Assembly: GCA_963971425.1 (NCBI GenBank)
Contig: OZ020516.1
Span: 36,630,199 to 36,694,198 of the forward strand
Direction: 5' to 3'
Length of the DNA: 64,000 nucleotides
Origin: Bryoerythrophyllum caledonicum
Lineage: Eukaryota > Streptophyta > Bryopsida > Pottiales > Pottiaceae
Shown piece by piece: positions 1,015 through 64,000 of the stretch; the first letter of the stretch is position 1, and every line of letters starts with the position of its first letter. Made by a program: the position numbers and the translations under genes. Below the pieces are notes generated by a model. It was not told where the DNA came from, searched no databases, and was given only the letters and a program-made list of their open reading frames with translations.

Positions 1015-1590
1015 CTGCACTGAAGAGGAGAGAGGAGGAAGAACACCGGTCTCTAACATGAAAAAAATGTCTATTTGTTCCACCACTACAACATTGCCCA
1101 CTGGACAAAGAATTAGGCAGCGCTACAGAGGAGGAGGAAGAACACCGGTCTGCCGTGTGATCTATTTGTTCCACCACTAAAGCGACACCCACTGGTCCCA
1201 AGATTAGGCGGAAGGAGGAAAAACACTAGTCTGTAACGTGAAAAAAGTGTCTCTTCATTCCACCACTATAGCGATGCCCACTGGACAAAGGATTAGGCAA
1301 CACTAAAGAGGAGAAAGGAGGAAGAATAGCGATCCCCGGCATGAATAAAGTGTCTATTTGTTCCACCACTAAAGTGATGCCACCGGCCGAAGGATTAGGC
1401 AGCATTGAAGAGGAGGAAGGAGGAAGAACACCGGTCTACCGTGTGATCTATTCATTCCACCACTAAAGCGACGCCCACTGGACCCAAGATTAGGCAACAC
1501 TAAAGAGGCAGAAGGAGGAATAAAGTGTCAGTTTGTTCCACCACTAAAGTGATGCCACTGGCCAAAGGATTAGGCAGCACGGAAGATGGC
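1015..1590 (-). repeat. diverged tandem array of a LINE 3'-tail unit
   Basis: About six units of roughly 80-105 bp follow one another. Each contains the landmarks GAGGAAGAACACCGGTCT, then TGAA(T/A)AAAGTGTCTATTTG, TTCCACCACTA, GCCCACTGGACAAAG and ATTAGGCAGC, all on the plus strand. The same landmarks in the same order occur once at the 3' terminus of the large minus-strand LINE (55688-55790). The array therefore looks like repeated copies of that LINE family's 3' tail, in minus orientation. Units differ by substitutions and small indels, so the array is old. It encodes nothing convincing. Confidence 0.75.
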
Positions 1591-2427: not shown

Positions 2428-3162
2428 ATGGAGGGCTGCACTGCGCGACTGGTGGTGGCGCTGGTGGTGGCGCTGGTGATCTCGGGGTGCCAGGCGTGGG
2501 ACTGCTCCGTCGCGGACAGGGCGATCTTGCTGAACTTCAAGAACAACTTCGTGGACAACGCGGGCGTGTTCGGGACGTGGGACATCGCCAACGAGAACTG
2601 CTGCACCTGGAAGGGCGTGACGTGCCGCGAGAGCGACGGTGCGGTGCTGGAGCTCGCCATCGTAGGGTCGTCCGGCGCGAACCAGCAGTCGTACGCCAAC
2701 GACGACGACGTGGGCTCGGGGCTGGTGGGGCTGGTGCACCTGCAGAAGCTAAAGATCCAGTGGGTGCTCTTCAACGGCGAAATTCCCAATGCGTGGAGCG
2801 CGTTCTCCAGCAACCTGGTGGCGATCACCATCAACAATGCCAACCTCCGCGACGACATCCCGTCCAGCCTCGCCCTCATTCAGAGCCTGCAGACCCTCGA
2901 TCTCAAGTCGAACCACCTCACCGGCTCCATCCCCTCGTCCTTCTGCTCGCACGCGAAAATCAACTACATCGACGTCTCCTACAACGACATGAACTACATC
3001 CTCGTGCCCGCCTGCCTCCAGAGCAAGAACATCACCATCATCGCCGGCAACCAGGGCCAGAGCACCAGCCCCGGCGTCCCCGGCGCCGGATCCATCCTCA
3101 CCGTCGCCTCCTCCCTCGTGCTCGCCCTCGGCGCCCTCTCCTCCGCCGTCCTCTTCATCTAG
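2428..3162 (+). CDS. small secreted leucine-rich-repeat protein, probably GPI-anchored
   Basis: A 244-residue protein in one exon. Residues 1-23 form a signal peptide (MEGCTARL, a valine/alanine-rich core, then SGCQAW). An LRR N-terminal cap follows: WDCSVADRAILLNFKNNF, then the paired cysteines of NCCTWKGVTC. Three to four leucine-rich repeats follow, including LQTLDLKSNHLTGSIPSSF. The C-terminus is a small-residue site followed by a hydrophobic tail (VASSLVLALGALSSAVLFI) with nothing after it, as in GPI-anchor signals. There is no kinase domain, so it is a receptor-like or cell-surface recognition protein, not a receptor kinase. An earlier in-frame ATG at 2311 would put about 39 charged residues before the signal peptide, so 2428 is preferred. 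Partner and ligand are unknown. Confidence 0.8.
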   Translation: MEGCTARLVVALVVALVISGCQAWDCSVADRAILLNFKNNFVDNAGVFGTWDIANENCCTWKGVTCRESDGAVLELAIVGSSGANQQSYANDDDVGSGLVGLVHLQKLKIQWVLFNGEIPNAWSAFSSNLVAITINNANLRDDIPSSLALIQSLQTLDLKSNHLTGSIPSSFCSHAKINYIDVSYNDMNYILVPACLQSKNITIIAGNQGQSTSPGVPGAGSILTVASSLVLALGALSSAVLFI

Positions 3163-3382
3163 AAACCCCCATACCTCAAGAATTTTGCCACCATCTCTCA
3201 CGATCTGGCTAATAACGCAAGTGATTCCAGATCTCTAGAGAGAATCGGAGGAATACTAGTAGTACATATACTAGGCTGTTGTGTGATCCGCACTCTGTTA
3301 TAGTACTAAGCTGCCATGGTTTTCTCTTGGCATGTATATTAGTAGGTGAACGATGATCTGAAGTTGCAGCTCTCAGTTCAAG

Positions 3383-20760: not shown

Positions 20761-20773
20761 AAGCTCTATAATA

Positions 20774-20806
20774 GAAGAAGAAGAAGAACGCCGGTCTCCA
20801 AAGGAG
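20774..20806 (-). mobile_element. extremely truncated LINE insertion (33 bp) with 13-bp target duplication
   Basis: Thirty-three bases, beginning (GAA)n then CGCCGGTCTCC on the plus strand, sit exactly between two copies of AAGCTCTATAATA (20761-20773 and 20807-20819). The inserted bases equal the last part of the large LINE's 3' tail (55688-55720), including the terminal hairpin and the (TTC)n end in minus orientation. This is what a target-primed reverse transcription event that stopped almost at once would leave. Confidence 0.85.
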
Positions 20807-20819
20807 AAGCTCTATAATA

Positions 20820-29680: not shown

Positions 29681-31850
29681 ATGGCTTCGTATGTAGAAGT
29701 CCTAAGGAAAGCCGCAGCGATGATTGAGGAGGCAGAGGTAGAGGCAGGGCGCCAGGTACAACCAACAGCAGCACCATCGGACGTGCAACAGATTCTCAAT
29801 GAACAAACAACCAGCGCCAGCGGTCTCCACCTTACCAAGGCTAAACCCGGAGAGGAACTCCCACCGGGATACAAACGAAGTTACGCCGGCTACCTCCTGA
29901 AAGACACAAAAAGAGAAATTAAAGTCAACCAAGAAATCATCAAAAATGAGACCCAATTCCTGCAGCAGTTCAGTTCTATTGCATTCTTCTTGGGAGGGAG
30001 ACCGACAGAGGTCCGGCTGAAGCAATGGTGCGAGGCCCTGAAGAAAAAAAATTGGCGGTAATCTGCATCTTGGTCGCCACCTTGGTAAAGGTTTTTTTCT
30101 GATCAAGGCAAACTCCATAGAACTCATCAGTAAACTCCTACTACTAACACCATACAGGACCACTGAAGGCATCTGTATCTTTCAACGCTGGATCCCAGGC
30201 TTCGACCCATATAACGAAGAGTTCAACCTTGCGGGAAACTCGGGAGGAATCTCGAGTAAGATGAAACTACCAACCTGGATCACTTTGAGGCACATACCTG
30301 AAGATTGTCTGGGAGTTTCTAGGGAGATTGCGGAAGGGCTTGGAGAAGTACTTGGAGAGGATAAAGGGGGATCCGACCACCGCTTCTGTATTGCAATGGA
30401 CTCCGGAGAAGCCTGGGAACCCTCCATTATCGTCACCAACGAGGAAACAGGTACCCGTCACACAATCCTCATAGACTATAACTTCCTCCCTATTAGATGC
30501 AGGTACTGCATGGATACAGATCATAGCCTTAAGGACTGCCCACAAAAACCAGGAAATAGGACAAAAACGAGCAGAAAGGAGCAGGCAACCACAGAGCAAG
30601 GAAAAGAGCAATTGGTGACCGCAGGAAAGGAGGTGCAAGCGGGAAGGAACGGGAAAGGACCAGTACAGGAAAACGAAGAGGAAGGGTTCAAAACCCAGAA
30701 AACAAGAAACAAGCGGAAGCCCAGGGAGTTACCTACGGCCACCACCAGAAACGAGAGACCCCAAAGAGGCCGCTTTGACGTCCTCAGGGAGGAAGACGGA
30801 GGAGACCAGATGGAGACAGAAAACGGGCTAGAGGAGCCCTCGAACTTCGAGAAGAGAGTTAGGGAAGCGAACTCCTCTCCAGCTGCCGAGATGGAGGTGG
30901 AGGCACTGACAAGGGACGAGGCTCCAGCCGAAGAAGACCAAGCAAGGGTCGAGGAAGTGGAAACTAAGGCAGTACTGTCCGAACCAGAGAGTAACCACAA
31001 CAAGTCTCGGAACTGCCGGGAGGAAGCGAGAGGAGGAAGAGGCCCGCTTGAGGGTCCAAACAGCCCCGAGGAGGCGAGAGCGGGAGGAGGACTGCCTGAT
31101 AGAGAGCCACACGGCCCTGAGGAGATGAGTACGAGAGGAGGACTGCTCGAGGGTGAGCCAAACGGCCCCGAGGACAGTTGCTCGTTGGGGTCTCAAGGTC
31201 TACTCGCTGAGATATCAGAGAGGCCAGGGGAGGCGAGAGAGAGAAGAAGCTCAGTTACGGCAGGAGGAAGCCCCGAGGAGGCGAGAGGGGGAGGAAGCCC
31301 GCTCGAGTCAACAGGGGAGGACTCTGGAAGCGACGCGAGGACACACCAGGCACAGCCTGAACTCGCGGCCCTGGAACTGGCGAACGGCCAGTATGACGTG
31401 AATATGACGGTTGGTGCAGACTCGGACCCAGAGATAATTGAAAGTACCTTTGATGCTGACAAGACTAACCGGTTGAGGGAAGGCCCAGACCTCAACGTCT
31501 CCCTTTCGGAGACTAGTGATGATGGTGGAGTCCAAGGGGCTTACATGAATGAAGAAGAGAGGGCAGCCCACTATATGACCCTCAACTGGACTCCAGACAG
31601 AGTAAGTGTTTCTCCAAACCTGGAAGCAAGGGACCAGAGAAGAGGAGAAGTCCCTCAAGTCGAGCCTATGAGTCTGGCTCAGAGAACGAAGAGGCAGAAA
31701 TCTATCGATGGAAGGAAGACAAAGGAGGCGCTCAAAGCACAGGCTGGAGTCTCCAAAAATAGGATTGTCAACAAAACTAGCGCCAGGAAACTCCAAATAT
31801 GTGAGTCTCTCAATAACCCTAGCTCCCAATCTTCTTTACCGCAAGTATGA
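29681..31850 (+). pseudogene. LINE ORF1 (DUF4283-like RNA-binding protein with CCHC knuckle), one frame break
   Basis: The frame opens at MASYVEVLRKAAAMIEEAEV (29681) and runs to 30061. The same protein resumes one frame over and continues to 31850. The switch falls at a run of eight adenines (30044-30051), so one extra A accounts for it. The N-terminal part resembles the DUF4283 region of plant LINE ORF1 proteins. A zinc knuckle CRYCMDTDHSLKDC lies at about 30509-30550. After it comes a long charged tail with repeated units of the GPEEARAGGGLLE type (31010-31310), a low-complexity region rich in Glu, Arg and Gly. The protein should coat the LINE RNA. An earlier ATG at 29582 is in frame. Confidence 0.8.
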
Positions 31851-34800
31851 ACCTACAAATCCTATCTCACAATGTTCAGGGTTTGAACAATCCTGGAAAT
31901 GTAGCTAGAATTAGGAATTATTTAAAGCCTATCTTGAACACATTAGATATTCTCTGTATTCAAGAACACAAGCTTAGGGGTCAAGGCATTGATTCCATAA
32001 ATAAAAGCATTTGGAGACAAGCCTATACTTTTCACTGCGAGGCACTTGAAGCAAATCAAACCAATGCAGGTTGTGGGGGACTAAGTATGCTAGTCTCCCC
32101 CAAAATCAAACATCTTATCATGGACCAAGGACATTCGAGGGGGCACTCAGCCCAATGGATTATACTTAAGGGCAACTCTGGAAGAGACCTAGGCATTTTA
32201 AACATATACGCCCCGCATTCCCCGTCGCAGAGAAGCCTTCTATGGTTAGAGCTTATGGAGGTTTTAAACCCAAGCTGCAACTGGATCTTAGGTGGTGATT
32301 GGAATTTTGTGGAAAATGCTAGAGATAAATGCTCCACATCAGACAGGAGTATCTCGGCAAGGGAAAGACTGGACTTTAGCCTCTTTAAGGACTTCCTCAA
32401 CGTGCAAGACTATTTTGACTTCAACCAACAACTATTATTCACTTGGGATAACCACCGAACGGGTCCAGAAAGGGTTCTAGAGCGACTTGACCGTTTTTAC
32501 GTTTTCCCTTCCCCCTGTGGTGAACCAAAGGCACATGTCAAATCCTATAAGATCCTAGGGAATGGTAGCCACTCAGATCACCTCCCAGTTTATCTATGGG
32601 TGGAACTAGAGGAGGCAAGGCCTAAAGGGGCCAAGTATAAGATGAACACCTTCTATCTAAATGACGAAGGAGTGGTTCAAGAACTAAAAGAAAAGTGGTT
32701 AAATTGCCCCCCTTCTCTAAGGTTTTTTGGAAAACTCAGGAGGGTCATCAAATGGTATAAGAACTTCTGCAAAGAGAAAGCCAGAGAGAGAAGGCTTAAG
32801 GAAGAAGATGCAAGAAGTAACTTGGAAAAGGAAAGAATCTGCCTTCATTCTAACCCAAATGACGAGCAAGCTCAGAATAGGGAGATCAGAGCTAGAGACA
32901 TCTTAACCAAGTGTGAGGATTGGAAGCTAGCTGGACAGCACATCAGGGGGAGGACAAAATGGAGGAAAGTAGGGGATAAGCCCACGAAAGAGTTTTTCCA
33001 AGCTTACAAACAAAGAGAAACTCAAAGCAGGATCACGGAACTACAGGATGAGCATGGGGATATTCATACTAGTCAACCAGCCTTAGAATCAGTTGTTTTC
33101 AATTTCTACTCTGACCTCTACTCCTGTAGGACAAGGCCAGAAAGTTGTGAAGGAGCTCAACAAGCCTCTCTATCAGGGCCAATCTCTAAACTCTCAAGTA
33201 AAATGCAAGAGATTTTGAAGGTAGAATTAACCCTGAGAGAACTTTCCTCTGCGGTGGATCAATTGGCTTCTGGTAAATCACCAGGACCAGATGGCATTGC
33301 AGCAGAGTTCTACAAGAAACTTTGGGGGGCAATTGGCGCAGACTACCTCGAAATGGTAAATGAGGCCCTAGGGAAGGGTAGCTTCCACAAAGGTGTCACA
33401 GAAGGATTAATTGCACTAATTCATAAAGGGGGAAGTAGGGGAAGCCTCAATAATTGGAGACCTATTACCTTACTCAATGTAGCCTACAAAATTTATGCCA
33501 AGGCTCTACAAATTAGACTACAGCCAATCTTAATGGACTTGATAAGCCCTGATCAATCAGCCTTTCTCCCTATGAGATACATCCTGGATAATATTTTTCT
33601 GACACACGAGACAATCCACCATGCTAAACTCTCTAATCAACCTCTATTATTCCTTAAGTTAGACTTTTCTAAAGCATACGATCGTGTAGATCTTAGTTTC
33701 CTTTTTCGTGCCATGGAGGCTATGGAATTTCCAAAGGAATTCCTTGACATGGTTGCTTTGCTCTTTAGGAATGCTAAGGCTAGAGTTAGCATCAACGGGA
33801 GAGTAACAGAAACCTTTTCCATCGAACAAGGAGTTAGGCAGGGGTGTCCCTTGGCGCCATACCTCTTCCTCATTATAGGAGAAATCCTTAATAGGTGTTT
33901 CAAAAGGGAGGTTGATAGTGGAAGAATCAAAGGTATAAATCTACCAGGAGCAACGGAGCCACAGGTCCTCCTACAATACGCTGACGATACCTCACTGACG
34001 GTCTTAGCGGAGGAAGAAACTGTAGCAAAGGTGATCGAGACCCTAGAAGAATTTGGTAAAGCCTCAGGTTTATTGTTGAACAGAGAAAAATCGGCAGCTT
34101 ACTTCTGGGGACAGAACAGACAACCCCGACCTCGGTGGACACAGAGGCTAAATTTTAAATGGGCAGAAGAGGGAGAAATCTCTAAGTTGTTGGGAACAGC
34201 CTTTGGACTTGACCTCACAACGGAGAATATAGACCTCTTCCTTCAAGGAAAAATTGATAAGAAACTGGAATATTGGACAAAAGTCAGAGCAAACAGCATG
34301 GCCAGGATCATTATTGGCAATAGCATCCTTATTTCTACTACTTTGTTCTACCTGGCAATTTGGGGAGGTAGTAACACCGGGGTTAAAAAGGTCACAGCTA
34401 AGATTCGCAACTACATGTGGGCTGGTACCTCCCAACCCTCTAGAGCTAGAGTGGCTTGGAGTTCAATTTGTCAAAGAAAAGAACTGGGAGGTCTTGGGGT
34501 GGTAGACCCCAAAGAAGCCATGACTGCTTTAATGTGCAAATGGATCATTGCTGCGTGCATGCCCAACCAATCAAACTTCACATCTCTAATTCGAAATAGA
34601 CTGGAGCACTGTCAACCCGCTACAGGACCGAGGTGGCCACCCAACCTCTGGTGGTTCACGAGCAAAGGTTTTCAAAGCTCAGGTGGTTCCAAGCTCTGGA
34701 ACAAGGCCAAACGATCTTGGCGCAGTCTAGTTAACGAACTTACCATTAACCCACCGAACTCTATCGAGGAATGGCTCAGTTCACCACTTTGGACTGCTAG

Positions 34801-36121
34801 AGGTTTACTTATGGAAGGTTTTCACCTATCAAAACAAAGGAAGGCAGCCCTGGCAAGGAATGGGATGGTCTACACTAGAGACATTTGGATTCAAGAGGAG
34901 AACAGGTTTATTGTTACCCAGGAAGCTGTGGGTAAGTTTGGATTGAGAGAAGCAGAATCTGAGGTATGGGAGGACTTTCTTCAACGGCTCAACCCGGTTA
35001 GCAGATACTGGACCATGATTCGACACCATCCCCCTAAACAGAGTGACTGGCTTGGAATTTTTGAACTCAACGGTGATTCCTTACCTATCTGGGTTTTTCT
35101 CGGGCAAGAGTTGAAAGGAAGAGGAGAATTAGGGAGGTATGGAGCTTGGCAAGTCAACGCTAGCGGTGGACTCTACTCTGTCGCCGGAAAGGCTAGTATT
35201 CTCCTCAAGAGTCCTACGGCAGTGAGTATCAGTACTATTACTGTCTGGGGAAAACTTGAAAGGGTGAGAGTGGTTAATTTTGTTAAAGAGAAAAAGGAGA
35301 AAGGAATTCTCCTTTACTATGGCAAAATCAGCTCGCTTATATGGGACCCGGGACGCATCATCTGGCCTGACAAGAAGCAGCCAATCTCCTTCATGAATTA
35401 TTCCACCAAGCATGGGAGGATGCTTCTTCGTGCTCGCCGCCCACCACCGAATGTAGTTCAGAAGAAATGGAGTCAAGTCCTCCCCCACAATTTCAAACTC
35501 AGATGGCGCAATGTTTGGGATAAGGAGAGAAGTGGAAAAGAAGCGGGGCTCATTTGGCAACTATGGCAGAAAGCGGTTGCGGTGAATCTTTGGAGGAACC
35601 GCGCCTCCCCTCGCATTGATGACAGTTGCACTGTTTGTAACACAGGAGACCAAGAGAGTATCCTTCATAGGTTTTGGAGCTGTAGTCAAGCTAGTAGATC
35701 GTGGGTGTACGTGAATGAGATTCTCAGGCGCCTCAGTAAAACCCCCCATTCCCAATGGGGAAATGTTAACTTCAAGCAGGCCCTCTTTGGTAGCAGGCCC
35801 CCTCGGAAATTTGCGACCTTCAGCAGAATTTGGCTCCTTCTTAGAGGGATTACTCTTTGGACTCTTTGGATTGCCAGGAATGATTGGGTGTTCAACCAGA
35901 ATAGGTGGAATCACTACAAAATTGAGAATGTCATTTGGCAAGGCCTTACGGATTACGGGAGGATCGCCTGGGGCAGAGTCCTCACTGCCAACACTGAGGC
36001 TAGTAGAAACAAGGCGGCTAACCTTTTCGACTCCACTTGGGGTTGTCATGAGTTGTTGTGTAGCGTTCAAGGCGACCACATTGTCTGGGTCAAAGAGTTT
36101 CATGCTAGTCCGGAGTCTTGA
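31847..36121 (+). CDS. LINE ORF2: APE endonuclease and reverse transcriptase
   Basis: An intact 1424-residue frame. Residues 1-230 are an APE-type endonuclease (HNVQGLNN near the start, IQEHKL, GGDWNFVEN near 148, SDHLPV near 243). The reverse transcriptase follows, with NNWRPITLLNVAYKIYAKAL, LKLDFSKAYDRVD, GVRQGCPLAPYLF and the catalytic YADD near residue 710. Near 1258-1276 is the zinc-binding C-terminal motif CTVCNTGDQESILHRFWSC (zf-RVT). No RNase H is seen, as in most plant L1 elements. Its ATG overlaps the ORF1 stop as ATGA, suggesting translation by termination and re-initiation. All catalytic motifs look complete. Confidence 0.95.
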   Translation: MNLQILSHNVQGLNNPGNVARIRNYLKPILNTLDILCIQEHKLRGQGIDSINKSIWRQAYTFHCEALEANQTNAGCGGLSMLVSPKIKHLIMDQGHSRGHSAQWIILKGNSGRDLGILNIYAPHSPSQRSLLWLELMEVLNPSCNWILGGDWNFVENARDKCSTSDRSISARERLDFSLFKDFLNVQDYFDFNQQLLFTWDNHRTGPERVLERLDRFYVFPSPCGEPKAHVKSYKILGNGSHSDHLPVYLWVELEEARPKGAKYKMNTFYLNDEGVVQELKEKWLNCPPSLRFFGKLRRVIKWYKNFCKEKARERRLKEEDARSNLEKERICLHSNPNDEQAQNREIRARDILTKCEDWKLAGQHIRGRTKWRKVGDKPTKEFFQAYKQRETQSRITELQDEHGDIHTSQPALESVVFNFYSDLYSCRTRPESCEGAQQASLSGPISKLSSKMQEILKVELTLRELSSAVDQLASGKSPGPDGIAAEFYKKLWGAIGADYLEMVNEALGKGSFHKGVTEGLIALIHKGGSRGSLNNWRPITLLNVAYKIYAKALQIRLQPILMDLISPDQSAFLPMRYILDNIFLTHETIHHAKLSNQPLLFLKLDFSKAYDRVDLSFLFRAMEAMEFPKEFLDMVALLFRNAKARVSINGRVTETFSIEQGVRQGCPLAPYLFLIIGEILNRCFKREVDSGRIKGINLPGATEPQVLLQYADDTSLTVLAEEETVAKVIETLEEFGKASGLLLNREKSAAYFWGQNRQPRPRWTQRLNFKWAEEGEISKLLGTAFGLDLTTENIDLFLQGKIDKKLEYWTKVRANSMARIIIGNSILISTTLFYLAIWGGSNTGVKKVTAKIRNYMWAGTSQPSRARVAWSSICQRKELGGLGVVDPKEAMTALMCKWIIAACMPNQSNFTSLIRNRLEHCQPATGPRWPPNLWWFTSKGFQSSGGSKLWNKAKRSWRSLVNELTINPPNSIEEWLSSPLWTARGLLMEGFHLSKQRKAALARNGMVYTRDIWIQEENRFIVTQEAVGKFGLREAESEVWEDFLQRLNPVSRYWTMIRHHPPKQSDWLGIFELNGDSLPIWVFLGQELKGRGELGRYGAWQVNASGGLYSVAGKASILLKSPTAVSISTITVWGKLERVRVVNFVKEKKEKGILLYYGKISSLIWDPGRIIWPDKKQPISFMNYSTKHGRMLLRARRPPPNVVQKKWSQVLPHNFKLRWRNVWDKERSGKEAGLIWQLWQKAVAVNLWRNRASPRIDDSCTVCNTGDQESILHRFWSCSQASRSWVYVNEILRRLSKTPHSQWGNVNFKQALFGSRPPRKFATFSRIWLLLRGITLWTLWIARNDWVFNQNRWNHYKIENVIWQGLTDYGRIAWGRVLTANTEASRNKAANLFDSTWGCHELLCSVQGDHIVWVKEFHASPES

Positions 36122-38599: not shown

Positions 38600-41500
38600 T
38601 CGGATACAAATCACGGCAACCAGCTAGAATTATAAAAGATAGAGATGACAGTCATGGCGACACACGCACGCACACGGGACACCCGCATACAGCCGCTCTT
38701 CTTCGATCCTCTTCAACCGGACGGGTCGAACTATCTCGGGTGGAACGTGGACATGAGGACGTACCTCTGCGCGGAAGAACTGGACGCGACGTTGGAGACA
38801 GAGCCTGAAAAGGAGATCCCAGCGCCGTACATGTGGCAAATCTTACTGATACTGCGAAGACACCTCGATGCATCTTTGCGTCAATAGTACATCCAGGTGG
38901 AAGACCCGGCAGAACTGTGGACAACATTAGAGGCGCGCTTCAAACATGAGGAGACCATCTTCTTGCCACAAGCACGCAGCGATTGGATGAGCCTCAGAGT
39001 CCTCGATTTCCCGAACTTTCTCGCCTTCAACTCGGAACTCCATTGGATCGTGGCGCAACTCAGGCTATGCGGCGACATCATCACCGACATTGACATGATA
39101 GATAAGACGCTCTCAACCTTCCCACCAGCTTGTGCAATTCTAGCGTAGCAGTACCGCAATATGAAGTTCACCCAACATTCAGAGCTTATGTCTTATCTTC
39201 TCCTTGCGGAAAAGCAGCAGCAGATGGTGTTGAAGAATGCCGAAGCACGCCCCGCCAAGGAGATACACGCGACCGAGATGAAGGAAGGGAAGCAGTCGAA
39301 CTCTACGCCAACTCCGCCACCGAAATCAGGCAATCCCAATAGGGAAACTCACGCTTCGGAGGCACCACGGAGGAAGAGCAAGGGAGACTGGGGCCCAAAA
39401 CATGAATGGAATCATTCAAACCAAAACCCCAGGTACAAACCCAGACCCTACAAGTCGTCTAGCTCGTCACAATCATCGGGCAAGGTATCGAAGGGATCAT
39501 GTCATAAGTGTGGTCGTCAAGGGCACTTTGTCAAGGAGTGTAGAGCGTCTCAGTATATAGTTGACATGTATCGAGAGCTGAAGTCACTAAGAGATGGAAA
39601 AAGGGAAACACATACCCTTGATGCCCCCTCTCTTACACTTCATGGGTTGGATCCTAAAAACTATATGGTCCACTATGGGTCACCTGCAAGCAAAACGAGA
39701 ATAGCTTTGTTTGATAGTGCGTCCACCCATACGATACTCCAAGACCAGGCATTCTTCGAGTTTGGAACTCGAAATGAGCCGTGGCAAACATTTGACGTAG
39801 TCACGATAGCAGGCAAGCGAACTCTTAAGTTTCGCGAGGGCCGGGCAAATATAGTCTTGCCCGGGGGAGCCCCCCTCACCTGTGAAAAGGTGATGTACGC
39901 CCCGGATGCCCCTCGGAGCCTGATCAGCTACCGAGACCTTAGGGCCGATCGTATCCACGTCTCCACTGCGGTGGGAAATGATGAAGAGGTTCTGGAGCTC
40001 AGGCGAGGGCAGAGACTCCTCGCCACCGCACATGCGGGAGACAACGGCCTGTATGAGTTACCCTTAATGGGAACTATACCTAGCCCCGCCTGCAAAGGTG
40101 AGGAAGAGGGTGGCGGACAAGATTCCCCACGTCTACCCCTGGAGGGTGTCCAAATGTCATTTATGACCACGAGCGCCAAGGCAGATCTCTGGCATTGCCG
40201 GTTGGGACACCCTGGGACTACCATGATGAGGAAAATGGTTCCAACACATTGGTTACGACCTATGTACAAGTGATGCTGAGCGGGTCGAGGAGTGCGCGAC
40301 GTGCATACAAGGCAAACTCATACGCCAACCGTCAAGATGGCGACTCCCGACCGAGATGCCAGCTCCGCTACATCGCTTGCACGACGACATATGCGGACCA
40401 ATCACTCCCAAATCAGGTCAGTTTCAGTATTTCTTTGTTCTTGATGATGCTTCTGGACGACATGCTGAGGTGTCACTACTTACGACACGGAACATGGTGT
40501 TCCCGAAAATCCTAGCGATGCTTATCCGGTTTAGAAACCACTTTCCCGATAACCACGTAAGTTTCCTTCGCATGGATAATGCCATGGAATTCGAATCCCA
40601 GGCCTTTGAGGATTTCTGTGTCGCGTCACGCATAGAATTGACCTATTCGGCTCCTTATGAGTATTCCCAGAATGGATTAGCCGAAGCGTACATTAAGAAA
40701 GTTCAGCTCATAGTTAGACTTCTCTTGATACACGCAAACTTAGCACCCAGTTTTTGGGGACATGTTGTCCTTCACGCAACTGTTCTCTTACGTCTCAAAC
40801 CTACCCTGTTATTGACTCAGTCACCTCTAGAGATGGCTTCAGGTAGAACCCCCCACGTAGCACACCTCAGGACATTCGGATGTGAGGTGTGGATCCCGGT
40901 ACCTGAACCAAAGTAGAAAATAGTCACACCCCACCGGCAACGAGGGACATACCTCGGGTATGATTCCCCGAGCGTCATTAGGTACAAACTACCGCATAGT
41001 GACGACATACACAAAGCCCGATTTCAGAATTGTAGATTCGTAGAAAACAAATTCCCTAGCTCACAGTTCAAGGAGGATCACTCAAAATTAAATTTTAAAG
41101 CCATAGAGACGCTTACCTTGAACCCTGATCCGCGTACAGCATTAGCCGATTCCAAGGTGAGGAAGTTAATCAATCTTCAGAACCTGGCGGATAAAATCCC
41201 AGATGGATTTCATTCCGGCTCCCGTATCATTAGAAGTCCAGTTCTTGGATCGGGAAATCCTGCCCCTCCCGAGCCCGCTAAGAAAAGGAAACTGAACCCT
41301 ACCCCTCGCCCCAGGGCACGTACGGTGCTACACACCAGCCTTACCTCTCACGACACACCATGGGATGATGTCGCAACGTTTCTATCTAGCCTAGCAACCA
41401 TAGATACATATCCAACCTCGTTAGTACAAGCTCAGAAAAGCATTGACTGGCCCCATTGGGAAAAAGCCATAAATGCAGAGTATAACTCGCTTAGAAAACG

Positions 41501-43019
41501 CGGTGTATTTGGGCCGCTTGTGAATGACCTAATAGACAAACCCATTGGCCACAAGTTGATTTTTACCCGCAAGAGAGACGAACAAGGGAATGTACTCAGA
41601 TTTAAGGTTCGATTAGTTGCTCAGGGTTACACACAAAAACCGGGGATAGACTTTGAACAAACTTACTCACTGGTTATGGATAGCACATCTTTTAGATATC
41701 TCCTCAGCCTAGCTGTTCAATTATCACTCGAGACTCAACTCCTAGACGTTGTCACTGCCTACTTATACGGTGACCTTGATACCGATATTCATATTAAGCC
41801 GCCCCCTGGTTTTATTACAAACCAAACCCCACCAGTACATGGGAGATTCTCCGGATTAAAAATCCGAAAAGCCCTATATGGACTTAAGCAAGCGGGGCGC
41901 GCATGGTATCATCACCTGAAATCTTTTCTCCTATCCCAAGGGTTCACGAATCACCCGGCACTACCATGTGTCTTTGTCCTGAAAGATACAACAGGATTTG
42001 TTATTCTAGCGGTCTATGTTGATGACCTTAACTCAATAGGGACATTAGCATCGAGTAAACAAGTAGAAAAGATGCTTACTAACAAGTTTGAGATGAAAGT
42101 TTTAGGCCGAACAACATACTGTCTTGGTCTCCAAATCAAGCACTTTGCAGATGGAAGTTTGTTACTCCACCAGCAGACGTATGTGAAGAAATTGTTGAGT
42201 ATATTCAACATGGCCGATGCAAACGCACTCTCCGCTCCGATGATTGGAAAGAGCAAAACTGAAGATGACCCTTACCGCCCTACCGAAGAAGACGAGGAGG
42301 AGCTTGACAGAAGTAAGTACTTGGCGGCCGTGGGAGCACTTTTATACCTCGCCACCAACACACGCCCGGACATCGCATTTGCAGTCAGCGTATTAGCTCG
42401 CCACAACCAAAAACCAACGGAACGGCATTGGCGCGGCATCAAGCACCTTCTCCGCTATCTTCGCGGCACGGAGGACCTCGGACTTCACTACCGCAAGAAC
42501 ACTATCAGCAGCATCACTGGCTACGCAGATGCCGGTTTCAAGAGTGACACAACAAACGGGAAGTCACAGACGGGCTACATCTTCACCAAAAATGGAGCAC
42601 CCATTTCCTGGAGATCAACAAAGCAGACCATCACTGCGACGTCAACAAATCATGCCGAGCTTTTAGCATTTCACGAGGCGTCCCAGGAGGCAGTTTGGTT
42701 ACAAACAATGCATCACACCATCTCTCAGATGAGCGGAATACCGATCAAGGAGGAGCCCATCACAATTTTCGAGGACAATGCGGCATGCATTGAACAAGTA
42801 TCCTCAGGCTTCATCAAAGCCGATCGGGTAAAGCACATCAGCCCACATCTATTCAGTTACACACAGGACCTCATGGAAGCAAAGCAGATTCAAGCAAGGA
42901 AGGTCGCATCAGCTGAGAATATTGCTGATATGCTCACAAAGGCTCTACCAGCTCACCAACATCGCAAGTTGATCAAGACAGCTGGTATGCGAACCCTTAC
43001 AGAATTAGGAACGGAATGA
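38600..43019 (+). pseudogene. copia gag-pol remnant
   Basis: Recognisable parts in order: gag with a CCHC knuckle (CHKCGRQGHFVKEC near 39500), an aspartic protease region (FDSAS near 39710), an integrase with its HH-type N-terminus near 40190 and core to about 41.0 kb, then reverse transcriptase (YVDD near 42020) and RNase H up to about 43.0 kb. The order with integrase before reverse transcriptase identifies copia rather than gypsy. It is broken in about four places and treated as a fossil. Confidence 0.9.
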
Positions 43020-55687: not shown

Positions 55688-56006
55688 AGAAGAAGAAGAA
55701 CGCCGGTTCCCGAAGGGGACCAGCGTGAATAAAGTGTTTGTTCGTTCCACTACTAAGACCATGCCCACCGGACAGGGAATTAGAAAGTTGGAACTACTTC
55801 CTCCTTTCGAGGGTATACACTTTGTAACGGGTAGCCAGAAACTCCCCAAGCAAACAACCAACCAATTAACCAACCAACTAACCAAGCGAGTAGTCAAAAA
55901 TCACAAACCAACGAAGCAAGTAACCAAAAAACCACAAAACAAACCAAGCAAGTAGCCAAAAACCACAGAACTAACCAATCAAGATAAATCAAGGCGAGGG
56001 AAGAAA
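55688..56006 (-). repeat. LINE 3' UTR with terminal hairpin and (TTC)n tail
   Basis: Follows the last stop codon. The last 100 bp, read on the minus strand, contain TTAGTAGTGGAACGAACAAA, CACTTTATTCACGC, then the hairpin GGTCCCCTTCGGGAACC and CGGCG(TTC)n. The 33-bp copy at 20.77 kb keeps a hairpin here with paired changes (CTCCTTTGGAG). The upstream 3' UTR has a repeated AACCAA/AAGCAAGTA-type pattern (55840-55980 on the plus strand). Confidence 0.8.
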
Positions 56007-58088
56007 TTAGGGGGGGTCTTGCGTATCGGGAAGGGCTTGGTTGTTTTCAATTTTGAGTTTATGTAGTAAAATGGACATGGCATATTGAGTAGCGATGGTG
56101 TTAATGTTTTTAAAGGTGGTTTTAATTGTTTCAATGGGTATTTTGAAGGCATCTTCAAGAGTTTTCATAGATGGGATAAAGGTGGTGGCACGAGCGCCAT
56201 ATGTGATTACAATAAGGGGGTCCACATTCCATCCGAGGGCAATGATGTCGTCAATAAGGGGTTGGTATTTATCTATTTTATTTTGTGTTGTTTCCGGAGA
56301 AAATCTATCGTTGCAATATGTGAATTCAATGAATTGAATGGTGTAGTCTGGGTCAATGTGATCGGGTGGTGGATCATTGTATGGTAAACCTTTAACACAA
56401 AGGATGTCTAGTTTTAGCCGAGCATTGCAATGGCATCTTTGGGTTACACATGAGCATGGGAGTAGCCAAGGAGGGACTGTATTTTCTTGTGGATTGTTAT
56501 TAAAGGTGCCGGCGTTTATTAATATAAAACATCTCGATTTGTTGTAGGAGGTGATTAGTTTTCGGACTTCCCAAACCGCTTTATTTTGTCTTTTAACTAT
56601 TAGAGAGTGTATGTGGTGGTTTCGGCATTTGAGTAGAACATGAAGCCATGAGTCAGGGTCCGTTGAGGGGCATATGGGGCATGTTATGGATGGGAATCTT
56701 TCTATTCCGAAGAAGAGTTGTTTGCGAGCGTTACCCATATATTGACCAGTATGGAATTTGATGAGGCATGTTATTTGTGAGTCTGAGATGATGGGGTTTT
56801 TCCAAAAATTTGTAGAGAGTTCATTGTCTAAGTTGTTATTATTAGTCCATTTTTCTATGTTAGGAATATTTTCTAAGATTGTGTCAAGGTTGTTGTAGAG
56901 GTCTTGTTTTTTGAGATATTTGCCCAAAAATCTAATCTGGCCTTTGTCCGGGGTATCTTCTTTGGAAGGCCAATCTTCTTTTTGGAAGTAGTATGGGGTG
57001 GCATGGGCATGTTCGTGTGGATCTTTGGCATTTTTGTGTGGATTTTCTCGGCCTTCTTTTGCTAATTTGTCTGCTTGTTCATTACCATCAATGTTGGCAT
57101 GGGCTCTCACTTTGTGGAGGGTTGTGATTTGTGTTCGGTTTTGTAACATTTGGACCATTGACGTTAATATGGTTTGGTCGGGGTGGCTATTGTGGAGGGT
57201 AGGGTGTGTTATTTGGGTGTTTAGTAGGTAAAGTGCATTTATACAATCGGTGAATATATGTGCAGGTTCATTGTTGTATTTTGTTGTGATGATTTGTAGT
57301 GTTTTGTGAATGGCCATGAGTTCTGCTCTAAGGATATTTTGTAGTCCATGAAGTCTTTTGGCTAGTTTAATTTCCTTGGTAGAATTATATATGCCATAGC
57401 CAGCTTTTTCTCTGCGCCAAGAGCCCGGGCTAATTTGTTCTGGTGGTTTAAAGGAGCCATCGGTGTAATAACTGTGTGCGGGGTTAAATTTTGGTGTGGT
57501 ATGAGTTGGATAATTTGGAAGAGGGGGCGGTGTGACGTAGTAGTTTAATGTATTATTGATATAGTTTAGTTTTGACCAGTTTTTACTACGGTTTACGGGG
57601 GTCTGTATAGGTGTCGGTGGGGCTGGTTTTGTATATAATCTGTGTATGTTTAAATTGTCTGATATGGAGGTAAGTTCGATAAGTTGCTCTAGGGTGCCAA
57701 GGGTTTGATTTTGATGATGGACACATAGTATTTGTAATGTAGATGGCTCGATTCGGGGTTTTTTTAGCTCGGGTGGAATCATAGGTTCTATGTATGGTAT
57801 TGAGTCTGCCTCAAATATTGCAATGATATGGGAGTCTGGGAATGAATTTGAGTGTTGGCTGTTGTTTTGGTACCAATTGTTGTTTGGTGTGATGATGATT
57901 GTGCTTGTGTTATTTGGGTCATGTTTGGCGGCAAGTCGAGCCCAGTGTATTGCTTGTTCCATTTCCTTATCGTTGTGGGGGTGAGCTATCCCTTTACCGG
58001 TCCATTTGTAGTCAAAGGCCTTTCCTAGGGATCCGAATATTTTGTCTCTTTCATAGGTAAGTAGAATTTTTTTTGTTTGGTAGAACAT
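56007..58088 (-). pseudogene. polyprotein part: RNase H, Cys/His cluster and C-terminal nuclease-like domain
   Basis: A 693-codon uninterrupted stretch. RNase H occupies about 57480-57050 with all four acidic residues visible: YYTDGSF, LRAELMAI, IFTDCINALYLL and GNEQADKLAKEG. Then CPICPSTDPDSWLHVLLKC followed by RNHHIH (about 56690-56620) forms a CCHC-like cluster. After an Asn-rich spacer comes LKLDILCVKG, then YTIQFIEFTYCNDRF, NKIDKYQPLIDDIIALGW and LIVITYGARATTF (about 56420-56170). This arrangement (D, then E in a beta strand, then a K-x-x-K-Y helix) resembles the restriction-enzyme-like endonuclease fold; the assignment is by pattern only. The N-terminal 190 residues are unrecognised. 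Confidence 0.7.
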
Positions 58089-59902
58089 GTGACCGGAGAA
58101 GAAAAATATGATTGTTCGATGTTAAAGGATGAAATTAGTGAGTCTAAAATGGGTGTGGGTATTGTGTATTGCGCATTTTTTAGGGGGTCATTTTTAGGTA
58201 TTCGGTATTTATACCTTTGGTAGAGCGAGATTAGTTCGGTTTCAAAGGGTTGGGTCGTTGGTTCAATGTTTGTAGAAGTTTGTAGTTTTGTATTGTATTG
58301 ATTCCACAGCCATTGGAGTCGAGTAACGGGGATAGTGTGCAAATGTTGGCCATTTTCTTCATATAGATGTGCTTGATTGTTGTCCATTTTAATTGTGTTT
58401 GAGAATGTAAGGATATCATTTTCGGAGTTACATTGTGATGTATGGATTTTTAAGAGTGGAATAATTATGGGTGGTGTTACGGATCTTGAGTCTCGGAATT
58501 GTTCTTGGGGGTGGTGGGCTAGAATGATGTCCGAGTAAATTTTGTTTTGAGTTTTTTGATAGTATTGTCTTAATTTTTCAATGTTGTGTGTGGAGGTATT
58601 GGTGTCGTGTCGTGGGAAAAGGGCTCTTTGGGGGAGCCATTTGTTGTATGTATTATCATTGTGTTGCCACTGGCATAGATATTTTGTGTAGGTATTTTGT
58701 ATATTATTTGTGTATGTGTGTTGGATATGTTTATGGTGTATGATGTTATTAATGGGATATGTGTTGGGGCTTTTGGGAATGTATGTTGGGGGACGGGGAT
58801 GGTATGGATGTGGGGAGTTAGGGGGATAGATTGGTAGGGGGATATTCCTTGGAGTGATGCAATTGTTGATGGTGGTGTATGGGTCTTGAAGTATGTAGGA
58901 GTATGGGTGTATGTTACAAGGGGTATGACATGTGGTGGGGCATGTTTGGTGGCAAAAAAGTTGTTTAGCAATGTCTAGAGCACTTTTTAATAGTTTGGAT
59001 GGGGTGAAGTGGTGGGCTTTGAAATCCTCATTGTTCATAATGTGTGTGCCGTTAGGTAAAGTAATTTGGTTTAGTTCAAAGATATTTTTTGAGAGGAGTT
59101 TTTGTAGAAGTTTTTGGGAGAGATGGGCATTGATTGTGTTGTGATTTAGTGTTTCTTGGCGCCATAGTATTTCTAGTGGTGTAGGATTAATGAGGAAGTT
59201 TGGGAGCGTCCTTTTAAGGTGGATTTTAGCTATGTGTTTTAATAAGAAGAATGTTCGTGTTATCGGTGATCTTATGCAGTCACTTGTTTTAATTCTGGGT
59301 ATGTTTTTGGCGCCACCGTATTGGACAAGGACATAATGAGTTAGTCCATTATATATTTTTCCAAGTCTACCTTTATCATTTAAGGCATTTTGTAGTTGTT
59401 CACCTATACATCGGAGATATGCGTTTTTGAGGGAGAAAGCTTCAAGCCCAAAGAGGTTATCTGGGAGTTGGGTTATTGCATTTGACATACATTTTGGTAA
59501 TCCACATATGGTTTTTTGTATGGCTATTATTTTTTTATCAAGTTTTTTGATGGCGGGCATAGAATATGGTACACCATAGAAATTGTATGCCACACCTGGG
59601 CGTAGTACGGTATCAATCATTTTTATTTTTTGTTTCATGGTGTCCTGACATGTTGTTAGTTCATTACATTGTTTGATGAGTTTCGTTGTTGTAGTGTGGA
59701 TTTGGATTTTCCATTTTAGTGAGGGAACAAGATTTGTACCTACGTATATGCATGGTTCATTTTGGTGTAGTATGGGGATTGGTTGATTGCGGTAATTGAT
59801 GTTGGAAGCTTGCATTAGGGCTTTGAAAGTGGTAGGGTTCATTTTGGATTTATTAGGGCATCCGGTAGCGGGACACCTACGACCATTCCGGTCCATGTGC
59901 AA
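58025..59902 (-). pseudogene. polyprotein part: linker between RT and RNase H
   Basis: A 625-codon open stretch that continues the RT reading after a frame change near 59840-59900 and passes into the RNase H part by another change near 58030-58090. The first 250 residues resemble the thumb and connection of RNase H-bearing LINEs (MNPTTFKALMQAS, VAYNFYGVPYSM, LFGLEAFSLKNAYLRC). A later stretch is low-complexity, rich in Pro, His, Ile, Asn and Thr (about 58830-58680). No catalytic motif is recognised. Confidence 0.6.
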
Positions 59903-60789
59903 TATCTATCAATTTTATTGAGTTGTATTTGGATAGATTTAATTTTGTTAGTTATGGCGAGGTCATCTGCGTATGCGGCAGAGTTTATTGTGACTTGTAA
60001 TGTGCCAAAAGTATACCCATTGTTGCCACGTTCTGGCCATCTGAGTAGTGGTTCTAAGAATATAATAAATAGGTATGGGCTAAGGGTATCCCCTTGTATG
60101 GTTCCTCTTTGGATGGGTATAGGTTTTGTTTTCCCGAAGTGTTCACCGATATAGCAAGTGGATGATTGAGAGTAGATGTTTCCAACAAGTGTAGTTGCAT
60201 CTTTTGGGTAACCGAGGTCCGTCATTATTGCTAGTAGTTGGGCATGGTCTATTGAGCCAAAGGCATTTTTAAAATCAACGTATAGTATGTATATATCTTG
60301 GTTTGAAAATCTTGCGTCTTCTAGTGCGGCTATTATAGTTTGTATTTGTCTAGCGGTACTTCTTTCCGCTCTAAATCCTTCTTGACTATCGTGTAGGATT
60401 TTGAATTTTTCACCGTATGAGGATAATACAAATGTGAGTGTACTAGTGAAGAGTTTATATATTGTGTTAGCTAGTGCAATTGGCCTATGGTTGGGTAGTA
60501 TAGATGGATCGCCTTTTTTGTATAGTAGTATTGTTGTACTTAATTTCCATGACGTTGGTATTTGTTTTTGTTTATAGCAGTGAGAGAAGAATAGGAATAG
60601 TAATTTATGGAATCTTGGGGGCATGTTTTTGAGTATTGAGTTTGGTATGCGATCTGGGCCTGGGGCTTTGTTGTTACCAAGGTTCCGGAGGCATGTGTCG
60701 TATGTGGCTATGTTAAAGCATTTATGTAGTGGGATTTCTGGTTCGCCTCGTTTGTCGAGGGTAAATCCATCTAGGTCATGCCATGGGTA
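59839..60789 (-). pseudogene. polyprotein part: reverse transcriptase
   Basis: RT motifs in order: NNKAPGPDRIPNSIL (about 60680), STTILLYKKGDPSILPNHRP then IALANTIYKLF, QEGFRAERST, YILYVDFKNAFGSIDHAQLL, IQRGTIQGDTLSPYLFIIF and the catalytic AYADDLAI (about 59960). All core residues are present. An in-frame stop at 60790-60792 separates this from the preceding part in the same frame. The RT is of the non-LTR type with RNase H downstream. Confidence 0.85.
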
Positions 60790-61770
60790 TTAGCGTACTG
60801 CACATGTACATTCAATTGGATGTTGTGGTTGGTACTTACATGTTGGCACTGTTGGTCTATTGCTTTTTGTTTGTTGATTGAATATTTCATTCGCAATGTC
60901 TTCTGGGCTAGTTAGGATATTATTATGTTGATCTGTGATACAATCCATCGGCGGGGATTCCAGGTTTTTAAAGACTTTTCTGTTAAATTTTTTGGGGCTA
61001 ATTTCGTATAGTTGTCTGTATTTTGAGATGGCTTTCTTGATGTTGTCTTTGGCGTATTTTGAGGTTATTTTTCGGGCTTGTATGTTGGCGTTTTTTGCAA
61101 TTAGTGCGATATCTATTATCCATGTATCATGGGGTAAATCCGGAGGCGGCGGGGTAGGAATTTGGATGTGTTGTAGAGTTAGTAGTTCATTGCATATGGG
61201 GTGGTTACGCCATTGAGGTTTGTTTTTAACAATTCTAATGGTTTTTCGTATAACAAGGTATGTAGTTAGGTGTTGTTTCCACATTTTAGAAAGTTTGCGG
61301 GGTAAGTAACCACCTTGTTGGGAAGTTTTGTTCGTCATTTGAGGTATTGGGTGAGCTCTACAAGTTTGTTCTAGTGTGTCAGAGATTGTATTGATGAGTT
61401 TGTCTAGGGTGTGGCATGCTTCTTGCCATTGTATTTGTGATAGTTGACAATGATTTATAAGAGTGTTTATGAGGGAGTCTATTTGTCTGGAGTTTTCTTC
61501 AAAGAATTTTGTGTTGAATTTTTCTATATTGTCTTTTGGGATGGGGTTGAGTATGCGTATAGTGTCATTGTTTGTGATTGTAGGGGTTCTATTAATTAGT
61601 GTGTTATTTGGGATGTGCAATCTTATAGGTGAGTGGTCCGAGTTGAGAATAACATCTTTATTTGTTGTAGAGGTGTATTGTGTATTGTTGTTTGTATTTA
61701 TATAGAATCCATCTATTAGACTCCAATCACTATAGTTATAGCTACCTTGTCTAGAGAATTGTGTGTCGGT
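60790..61770 (-). pseudogene. polyprotein part: end of APE domain and linker to RT
   Basis: Begins with YSDWSLIDGFY and NSDHSPIRLHI (about 61740-61610), the last endonuclease motif (SDH), in a frame different from the preceding part. It then runs about 270 residues of linker (ARKITSKYAKDNIKKAISKY, KKFNRKVFKNLESPP) to a stop at 60790. It has no domain of its own. Confidence 0.65.
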
Positions 61771-62400
61771 TTTATGTAGTTGAGGTTTAAATTTTTTGTG
61801 AAGCGGCGCAATTGGTAATCAATGTTTTGAGGGGGGGTGTTATTATTTCCGTTTTGGCGACCGATTAAAGCTATGTCTCTGTTGAAGTCACCACATAGTA
61901 GGTATGTGTGATTGGGATTATTATTAATTCGGGATGTAATAGTGTTTTGTATGTCTATAATAAATCTAGTATCTTCGAAGTGAGATGGCATATATATGTG
62001 AAAGATTAACCATGGTTGTAATGGATGATTAGTAACTTTGATTATTTGAATGTACGGTGATATGTGCATTGGTATAGGAATTTTGTTGATGTTGCCCGAG
62101 AAGGCATATTTTTTGTATATTAGTGTATGGAGGCCTCCGCGGCCTGGTGTGTATGGTCTCCTTTGTTGAATGCATCTTGTAAATGCATGTGTATTATTAA
62201 AAATGAGTTTATAGTCTTGAAATATATTTTGTATATATTTTGTAGATTTTGTGGCGGATAATTTTGTTTCTTGTATAACTATGAGGGCTGGTGGTGTGTT
62301 TGTGTGTGTGACCAGAGTTTGTAAGCTAGGAAGGGCAGTGTTAAGGGAGGAGGCATTCCATGTGATTATGTGTGTATTTTCTTGATTTGTTCTAATGTTT
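61716..62400 (-). pseudogene. polyprotein part: APE-type endonuclease
   Basis: Readable in one frame from about 62400 down: HIITWNASSL, ALIVIQETKL, PGRGGLHTLIYKKYAF, PWLIFHIYMPSH and YLLCGDFNRDI. These are the ordered motifs of the exonuclease-III-like endonuclease of LINEs (N, QE, RGG, Y-P, GDFN). The D and H of the final SDH lie in the next piece after a frame change near 61770. Confidence 0.8.
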
Positions 62401-62429
62401 TGATTTTGTGGATGGATGTAGGGAGGTGG

Positions 62430-63320
62430 TGGAGGTGGGTGGGTGTATTCTGGTATAGGGTCTAAATATTTCAGTGATTTGTTGATAAGAGTATTGGGGA
62501 GGTAGGGGAATTTTAGTTTTATTGTTTCATTTGAGGGAGATATGGTTTGACTATGTAAGAAATCATATAGTTCCTTGTGTATTGAGTTCTCATGGTTTAT
62601 AATATTTTGGTTGTCTTCAAGAAACTTTATATAAGGGTGCGGAGTGTGAATGTGTCGTTCCGGTGGGTTTTGTAGGTTTAGTTAAGTTTGTAGGATTGAA
62701 TTGGTCCATGTAATTGTGTTCAAATTTTGTGGATTTAGGAGATGATTACACTCATCTATGTGTAGATGTATAGTGACTGTTAGTGCATATAGAATGTGGG
62801 GTGGAGGATGCATATTTTTTTGGTGTATGTATTGAGCAATGTTTTGGGTATGTAGTGTTATGTGTGTGGTGTAATGTATGTGTGTTTTTTAAGAAAGGTG
62901 CGAAGGATTTTGCTATGTGTTCGTATTCCGGTTGTAGTTTTATAGTATTAGGTATGAAGTATTTTTTGGCATTTTTCTTATGTGTTGTAGGGTGTCTTTT
63001 AGTATATTAGGCATGGGTCCTGGGTTGGTTTCAATGTCTCCTCCTAGAAGTAGTAGGAGTTTGTGGTATATATGTTTAGTATTGTATTTTAAAGGCTTTG
63101 TTATGTTATTAAAGTCTTGTTGGTTTGGGGGTAGGTGGATGTTTGTATTTTGTGTGTGGGTGGTGAATTTATTTATTTTTATAGTGGGTGTAATTGTTTT
63201 TGTCATTAGCTTATTATGTGTCCATGTGTTTATTTGCGTAGTTGTTTTTGTTTTAATGATGTGTAGATGTGTATATGTTTGGTTGTATTTTTTCGTGGTT
63301 GTTTTTGGCCATGTGTACAT
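62430..63320 (-). pseudogene. polyprotein N-terminal part: leader, 2A motif and proline-rich region
   Basis: From MYTWPKTTTKKYNQTYTH (63320) about 92 residues of Thr/Lys/Asn-rich leader lead to KLLLLLGGDIETNPGPM. After the 2A motif the frame holds about 24 more residues and then stops. A second readable stretch around 62680-62430 (FLEDNQNIINHENSIHKELY, KLKFPYLPNTLINKSLKYLD, PIPEYTHPPPPPPYIH) leads toward the endonuclease, so at least one frame break lies between. No ORF1-like RNA-binding domain or zinc knuckle is seen. Confidence 0.6.
63015..63038 (-). other. 2A ribosome-skipping motif (DIETNPGP)
   Basis: The minus strand encodes GGDIETNPGP preceded by five leucines, matching the consensus D-(V/I)-E-x-N-P-G-P. 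In viruses and in some non-LTR retrotransposons of trypanosomes and animals this makes the ribosome skip the Gly-Pro bond, so one reading frame yields two proteins. Here it would release a leader of about 101 residues from the polymerase. The activity is inferred from the motif only. Confidence 0.85.
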
Positions 63321-64000
63321 GTGATTATTATGTTTAAGAATATTTGTATGTGGGTTTATGTTGGTATTTAAGGTGGTATTTAAGTCGTTTTTATATGCAG
63401 TGTTAGTATATACTTTGGGATTTATACAAGTGTTTGTTTTGATGTTTGTATTAGTATGTATTTCAGTATTTATACTGGTGTTTATACTCGTGTTTGTATT
63501 TGTATAAGGGTCAGTATTATTTTCCAGTATAGTATATGCATATGTATTTATATTTATATTTGTATTTGTATTTGTATTGTATACACATTTTTGGCATAAT
63601 ATTTGTATTTATTTTTTGTTTTAGTACAATATGGGTATATCGTATGTAGTCTATATAGTGTATACTCTATGGGATACATGTCTTTGTATACTTTTATGTA
63701 TTCTAATATGTATTCTATTGTATATATCTCTATATATACGGTGGATAATACTATGTAGATACTACAAAAAACTAGTAGTATTTTGTGGTGTATTAGTAGT
63801 ATTTTTTAGTATAGGGTGTTTAGTATTGATATGGTTTTGTAGTATGTAGAGGTATTGACTAGGTGTATTCTACTACGGTCGTATTTTATACAATACGGGT
63901 GGGGTAAAAAACCATTGGCCTTGAGGTTGTTGTTCTTCACATTTTTGACGAGTCCTCTTCAATCGAGATAGGTGGTTTGGACCCCATGATGTTTTGCAAC
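63321..64000 (-). repeat. AT-rich region 5' of the 2A-LINE reading frame
   Basis: On the plus strand 63360-63600 repeats GTATTT/TTTATA/TTTGTA hexamer-like units, a degenerate microsatellite. 63600-63900 is very AT-rich with many TAGTAT motifs. After about 63900 the composition becomes mixed, which may mark the edge of the element. No gene is supported. Confidence 0.45.

Follow-up and report, generated by a model that had tools for sequence, protein, structure and literature searches.

The minus strand of the analysed 64,000-nucleotide stretch of DNA (the window) carries, at 55688..63608, a LINE copy that is very probably the decayed remnant of a non-LTR retrotransposon of Dualen/RandI type in plant DNA, in which a PCIF1/CAPAM-like domain lies between the reverse transcriptase (RT) and the RNase H. 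This domain is a larger novelty of the element than the combination of a 2A motif with two nucleases. The visible extent was drawn from reading frames, homology, an A+C-rich strand and the 3' tail; the low-coordinate end is the 3' end, whereas no 5' end was found in the 64-kb window and the copy may extend beyond 64000. From 5' to 3' it contains an N-terminal part rich in Thr, Asn and Lys, the 2A motif, an APE endonuclease, the RT (YADD), a long connector, the RNase H and a C-terminal domain. A sequence-only reading of this DNA had named motifs of 2A, APE, RT, RNase H and the C-terminal blocks, and all of them were located, in that order. Its domain order was correct as far as it went and had missed the PCIF1-like domain and a chromodomain-like stretch between RT and RNase H. 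The idea of a single reading frame did not hold: guided by relatives, the reading shifts frame five times and hits two stops, and the copy is therefore dead. The last frame ends at a stop codon at 56007..56009 (minus strand). The motif set can nevertheless be taken as more than chance, because relatives conserve these blocks too and 2A is present in 13/13 proteins reaching the site. Rfam gave no match in the 64-kb window at gathering scores, and NCBIfam only matches far below their cut-offs.

Protein searches were performed with three parts of the element: the last ORF retrieved 68 proteins among 8,000 scored, the APE-RT read-through 126 among 5,430 (120 listed), and the RT region taken from the full read-through 157 among 2,947 (120 listed). 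Named members among the RT-region matches listed were Haematococcus lacustris and Pleodorina starrii and, further off, the oomycete Globisporangium splendens and a Cordylochernes entry. P0150 and P0155, found in the APE-RT search, come from EukProt. P0001 and P0070 share a source with each other and lie on contigs of equal length, 13,377 bases, which we take to be one contig. The relatives encode an N-terminal protein and 2A, then APE, RT, a chromodomain-like stretch, the PCIF1-like domain, RNase H, CCHC and a restriction-like endonuclease (RLE), and the longest of them carry the post-2A and the preceding domains on one polypeptide. RT, PCIF1-like domain and RLE stand on one polypeptide and in the same order in 69 of the 72 relatives having both RT and RLE, and ten proteins, four of them from Haematococcus, also include 2A on that polypeptide. 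Pattern-matching stretches at related loci (36 and 6 in viral contigs, 41 in genome contigs) were considered and none was confirmed.

The RT thumb and connector of the window copy (58061..59860, minus strand; homologous to P0001 and P0058) end within the first half of the PCIF1/CAPAM-like methyltransferase-fold domain, which spans about 57765..58375 on the same strand and is split by a frame break at ~58061. The two halves flanking the break match Pfam PCIF1_WW (PF12237) at 2e-4 and 0.07, each below the curated cut-off; the relatives match PCIF1 in both fold and sequence. That Pfam family is described as a methyltransferase resembling CAPAM rather than as a WW domain (PMC7641849). The relatives agree in fold and motif register with PCIF1/CAPAM, a cap-specific adenosine N6-methyltransferase, the likeness comprising the helical part, the methyltransferase core and the FASPLN and FGS motifs. 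In contrast to PCIF1/CAPAM, the domain is here embedded in a LINE polyprotein, and the place of NPPF is mostly taken by AHPHN (~57972-57986 in the window copy), with NPEY or other forms in relatives. In the fold comparison the VIA rows cover mainly model residues 389-866, with the chromodomain-like part outside, and the assignment in Haematococcus P0246 rests on our own iterated profile, not on Pfam. PCIF1 was found in 0 of 30 other LINE proteins, a weak negative control because most of these proteins end too early: the domain begins at least 461 residues past the RT in relatives, and only 12 of the 30 extend at least 400 residues past it and 4 at least 600. No PCIF1 in a LINE was found in the literature, where partial coverage makes this weak evidence of absence. 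The neighbouring chromodomain-like stretch (about 58550..58762, minus strand) is weak in the window family and clearer in the relative P0147, with Pfam Chromo E-values of 0.2 in the window frame and 3.4e-4 in P0147, both below the curated cut-off. It consists of strands and one helix in the P0001 model; a PDB sequence search with it returned no chromodomain, the one match (0.44) being to a protein named mS70.

Judged from its sequence, the PCIF1-like domain is a homologous domain and not a PCIF1 enzyme, and in the window family it probably no longer methylates and acts as a binder. A purely structural spacer that binds neither RNA nor cap would agree with a catalytic motif that is highly variable across the clade, yet it seems rather unlikely for a domain that is kept at one position in those 69 of 72 relatives and whose model is confident, with 10-residue pLDDT means mostly above 80 over P0001 residues 390 to 870. 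It is likewise unlikely that the domain is still an active methyltransferase that marks the RNA of the element itself, with m6Am at the cap or m6A internally. Fold and motif register fit PCIF1, and some relatives retain NPEY, SPPF or NPP in the catalytic position; against this, the 45 domain rows of the nearest relatives (P0001-P0068) hold 24 AHPHN, 5 AHPHT, 5 gaps and otherwise other forms, NPPF being absent from these rows and from the window copy, and the Haematococcus rows read WNVPAD or WNVPAE.

For the binder role, a function at the cap is a tentative suggestion. In the mechanism that we envisage, the ribosome would skip at 2A and so free an ORF1-type, RNA-binding N-terminal protein, and the downstream enzyme would be translated from the same frame. 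The enzyme would bind the 3' end of the RNA (hairpin and TTC repeats) and copy the RNA at a nicked target, presumably by target priming; the two strand cuts may be divided between APE and RLE, and RNase H would remove the RNA. The PCIF1-like domain might grip the capped 5' end of the element RNA and so favour full-length RNA. It is conceivable, if doubtful, that dual-endonuclease LINEs captured a PCIF1/CAPAM-like cap methyltransferase before the sampled algal and plant lineages split, and that it recognises or marks their own capped 5' end. If so, the element would possess a built-in check that full-length RNA is copied, with the enzyme kept in some lineages and made into a reader in the window plant family. 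A PCIF1 homologue between RT and RNase H, together with two nucleases and 2A, would make two steps of the LINE cycle directly testable: the preference for intact, full-length RNA and the completion of second-strand synthesis.

The 2A/StopGo motif HKLLLLLGGDIETNPGP lies at 63015..63065 (minus strand) and agrees with the consensus D(V/I)ExNPGP in a hydrophobic upstream context. In a census of proteins P0069-P0158 (n=90), 18 matched the pattern for the block after 2A, and all 13 of these that reach at least 45 residues further upstream carry the motif at the site, which reads GDIExNPGP in 12 of them and GDIQPNPGP in P0083, so that the earlier identification of 2A is borne out by its conservation. 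Seven further proteins hold GD(I/V)(E/H)xNPGP; P0116 and P0135 have it twice, with H for E at least once. Among long relatives whose RT starts at residue 1,000 or later, 2A was found upstream of the RT in only 20 of 55, and downstream of the RT start no 2A motif occurred in 231,832 residues of relatives. The 2A-bearing LINEs of trypanosomes and animals are reported to be APE-type (Odon 2013), and the window element differs from them in having RNase H, an RLE and a PCIF1-like domain as well. The presence of D(V/I)ExNPGP in a LINE is itself shared with those elements (L1Tc, sea urchin elements), from which 2A is known (PMC4981915).

The APE endonuclease (61624..62369, minus strand) contains a frame break at ~61746 and matches Pfam PF03372 at 2.3e-5, which barely passes the cut-off. 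The QE, RGG, GDFN and SDH motifs claimed for it were located, with IQETK in 62279-62256, RGG in 62147-62130, GDFN in 61901-61875 and SDH in 61644-61624, and these motifs, together with SLIDGFY, are the same in relatives. The RT (59878..60789, minus strand; Pfam RVT_1 2.9e-23) has the expected YADD within AAYADDLA at 59979-59956, and its nearest PDB sequences are R2 RTs (4e-25), followed by L1 (2.5e-16 for an 832-residue chain, no better than 5e-16 for full-length ORF2p). For the RT tree, 212 sequences with an RT match were available, 183 near full length, and 92 were hand-picked for breadth; the tree was rooted at midpoint for drawing only. In the 92-sequence tree the window RT falls in a 10-row family (100/99). 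This family joins with P0189 (96/88) within a clade of 52 rows (100/99) shared with the volvocalean algae Haematococcus and Pleodorina; the algal rows bear no Dualen label, and the tree is without a Chlamydomonas reference. R2, L1, a jockey-like RT and the Globisporangium elements lie outside this clade.

RNase H (57048..57473, minus strand; Pfam 4e-13) is complete in its D-E-D-D residues, from 57473, 57335, 57260 and 57086, as had been proposed. It is followed at 56010..56681 on the same strand by a CCHC knuckle, the RHN position and the RLE, with IEFT and K..KY; the CCHC starts from 56681, LKLDIL lies in 56420-56400, QFIEFTY at 56336 and KIDKY in 56282-56259. Alignments of this C-terminal domain show almost no variation in the zinc ligands and RHN; the PD has P in 88/91 and D in 91/92, the acidic residue is E in 88/91 and D in 3/91, and the residue two past the acidic E is K in 35, G in 28, T in 26 and A in 2 (n=91), with T in the window family. 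CCHC, RHN, (R/K)PD, D/E and the downstream K are thus all present at family level; the window copy departs at RHN and PD, with RQN for RHN and LKLD where relatives mostly have RPD or KPD, as expected because the copy is decayed.

An RLE profile of 14 C-terminal domains was compared with 177,635 distinct PDB sequences and gave 11 matches, of which the first five are R2 proteins with modest E-values (0.0021 to 0.021); two of these five, named solely RT-like protein, we take to be R2Bm. In 9nl3, 9dou and 9nl2 the alignment takes in the CCHC/RHN part followed by the PD...K part, and in 8gh6 and 8ibw the match is restricted to the CCHC/RHN part. Profile-profile comparison of the C-terminal domain with two R2 endonucleases gave a probability of 97.8% (E 1.2e-12, 164 columns), in contrast to 0.6% for the PCIF1-like profile against the same pair. 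The domain that the sequence-only reading had taken for a PD-(D/E)XK nuclease thus matched a nuclease family, and it is of R2 type. Pfam gave a weak L_protein_N match on this region (0.006, below cut-off), presumably another PD-(D/E)XK nuclease. The RLE was found in 0/30 control LINE proteins, which is not proof of absence: the profile misses P0168, a distant LINE where simple pattern matching had picked up an RPD...K..KY stretch.

Given the strongly A+C-rich coding strand of the element (A 0.40, C 0.27), which differs from the remaining window, and the fact that the element reaches or passes the window edge, we considered contaminating or misassembled algal or protist DNA as a source other than a land plant. 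This is very improbable, since parts of the element recur elsewhere in the same window. The 3' UTR (55688..56006, minus strand) has a ~31 bp internal repeat at 55876-55983, a terminal hairpin at ~55702-55725 and a (TTC)n tail at ~55689-55700; the predicted hairpin is non-significant (z -1.4, with 20/200 shuffles folding equally well). Its final ~100 bp are homologous to a degenerate tandem array of ~102 bp units at 1031..1577 (minus strand), with six nhmmer matches (E 1.3e-7 to 0.012), of which the last falls outside the inclusion threshold, and a tandem repeat called by TRF at 1239-1520. At 20761..20819 (minus strand; nhmmer 0.0082) there is an insertion of 33 bp that shares the 3' end and (TTC)n tail of the element, the piece itself lying at 20,774-20,806 between two copies of the 13-bp direct repeat TATTATAGAGCTT. 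These 3' UTR repeats at 1-1.6 kb and 20.8 kb tie the element to the surrounding genome, and the 33-bp piece and the array suggest target-primed insertion with a short duplication. For the main copy no target-site duplication was found, just a shared 7-mer. The other window frames match LRRNT_2, bHLH, Rieske and DUF4283, which looks like land-plant sequence and argues further against contamination. For Chlamydomonas, a published table pairs SINEs with RandI/Dualen elements as tail source (PMC3747384).

The assignment to Dualen/RandI in a plant rests on APE and RLE in the same element, on RT and on RNase H, and the name itself on architecture and named algal hosts, because the comparison set was without a labelled Dualen reference. 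With R2-clade LINEs the element shares the C-terminal CCHC, RHN and PD-(D/E)XK endonuclease and an RT closest to R2 in the PDB; we know of no R2 element with APE, 2A, RNase H or a PCIF1-like domain, and since APE is present the window element is not an R2 element. Dualen/RandI elements encode APE and a PD-(D/E)XK endonuclease (PMC3636483) and have been credited with RNase H (PMC4640811), so that the RNase H part of the novelty claimed earlier shrinks. A 2015 listing places them in green algae only (PMC4438587), and they are reported from relatives of Chlamydomonas (PMC8226300) and, in 2025, from cryptophytes (PMC12747079); dual-endonuclease LINEs would thus extend to an apparent land plant. 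The window element differs from these in its apparent land-plant host and in its 2A and PCIF1-like domain, neither of which is mentioned in the Dualen literature consulted.

2A, APE, RT, RNase H and a C-terminal PD-(D/E)XK nuclease are genuinely combined in this element, and the novelty of the combination stands in part: in the literature consulted we found no report of this architecture in land plants, while the order APE-RT-RNase H-RLE with 2A already exists on single polypeptides in Haematococcus lacustris P0246 and in metagenomic relatives such as P0227. P0227 (3,299 residues) has 2A at 310, OTU at 428-528, APE at 937-1155, RT at 1596-1876, PCIF1 at 2520-2649, RNase H at 2798-2940 and RLE at 3059-3298; P0246 has 2A at 145, Josephin at 350-494, APE at 694-917, RT at 1331-1602, the PCIF1-like domain at 2282-2461, RNase H at 2567-2698 and RLE at 2815-3009. 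That an APE-type LINE and an R2-type element were nested or joined by chance and read as one, as a window copy readable only across several frames might suggest, is refuted at family level by such single-polypeptide relatives, P0227 and the 69 of 72 with a shared order among them, and is exceedingly improbable.

Additional modules across the relatives' retroelement group include PHD, C5 DNA methylase, OTU, Josephin and Ulp1, and one retroelement group would thereby show accretion of chromatin and RNA modules. Josephin and OTU gave no match in the window frames, P0070 or P0134; Josephin occurs in many Haematococcus rows.

Two further sequences in the window share the 3' end of the LINE, a decayed copy that is probably of Dualen/RandI type. 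A 33-bp insertion at window 20761-20819 on the minus strand terminates in the LINE 3' sequence followed by TTC repeats, and a perfect 13-bp direct repeat lies on both sides of it. At window 1031-1577, also on the minus strand, a degenerate tandem array with units of ~102 bp has homology to the tail of the LINE 3' UTR; this array is possibly a SINE-like or satellite relative.

The coding strand of the LINE (window 56007-63608, minus strand) is strongly biased in its composition, with A at 0.40, C at 0.27, T at 0.22 and G at 0.10. Thr, Asn, Lys, His and Pro seem likewise to be enriched in the proteins of its nearest relatives.

The relatives P0116 and P0135 contain two motifs each that resemble 2A, the putative ribosome-skipping signal of the family, and in at least one of these the usual E is replaced by H; such motifs are perhaps decayed or tuned skipping sites. 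A SAYRPRHK-like motif recurs upstream of the 2A in P0134, P0111, P0106, P0093 and P0070, with four copies in P0134; within the N-terminal protein it may serve as a repeat that binds nucleic acid.

Additional modules, namely Ulp1, C5 DNA methylase, PHD, OTU and Josephin, were observed across the dual-endonuclease relatives P0195, P0202, P0203, P0227, P0246 (Haematococcus lacustris) and P0278. One relative, P0031, is a piece of this eukaryotic family that is labeled in the database as an RNase H family protein of a Candidatus Nitrosocosmicus MAG, which looks like contamination of the archaeal bin.

Other transposable elements of the window, both on the plus strand, include a plant-type L1 at 30042-36121, with a DUF4283 (ORF1) frame and a stop-free APE-RT-zf-RVT frame of 1,432 codons, and a Copia element at 39149-43019, distributed across several frames.
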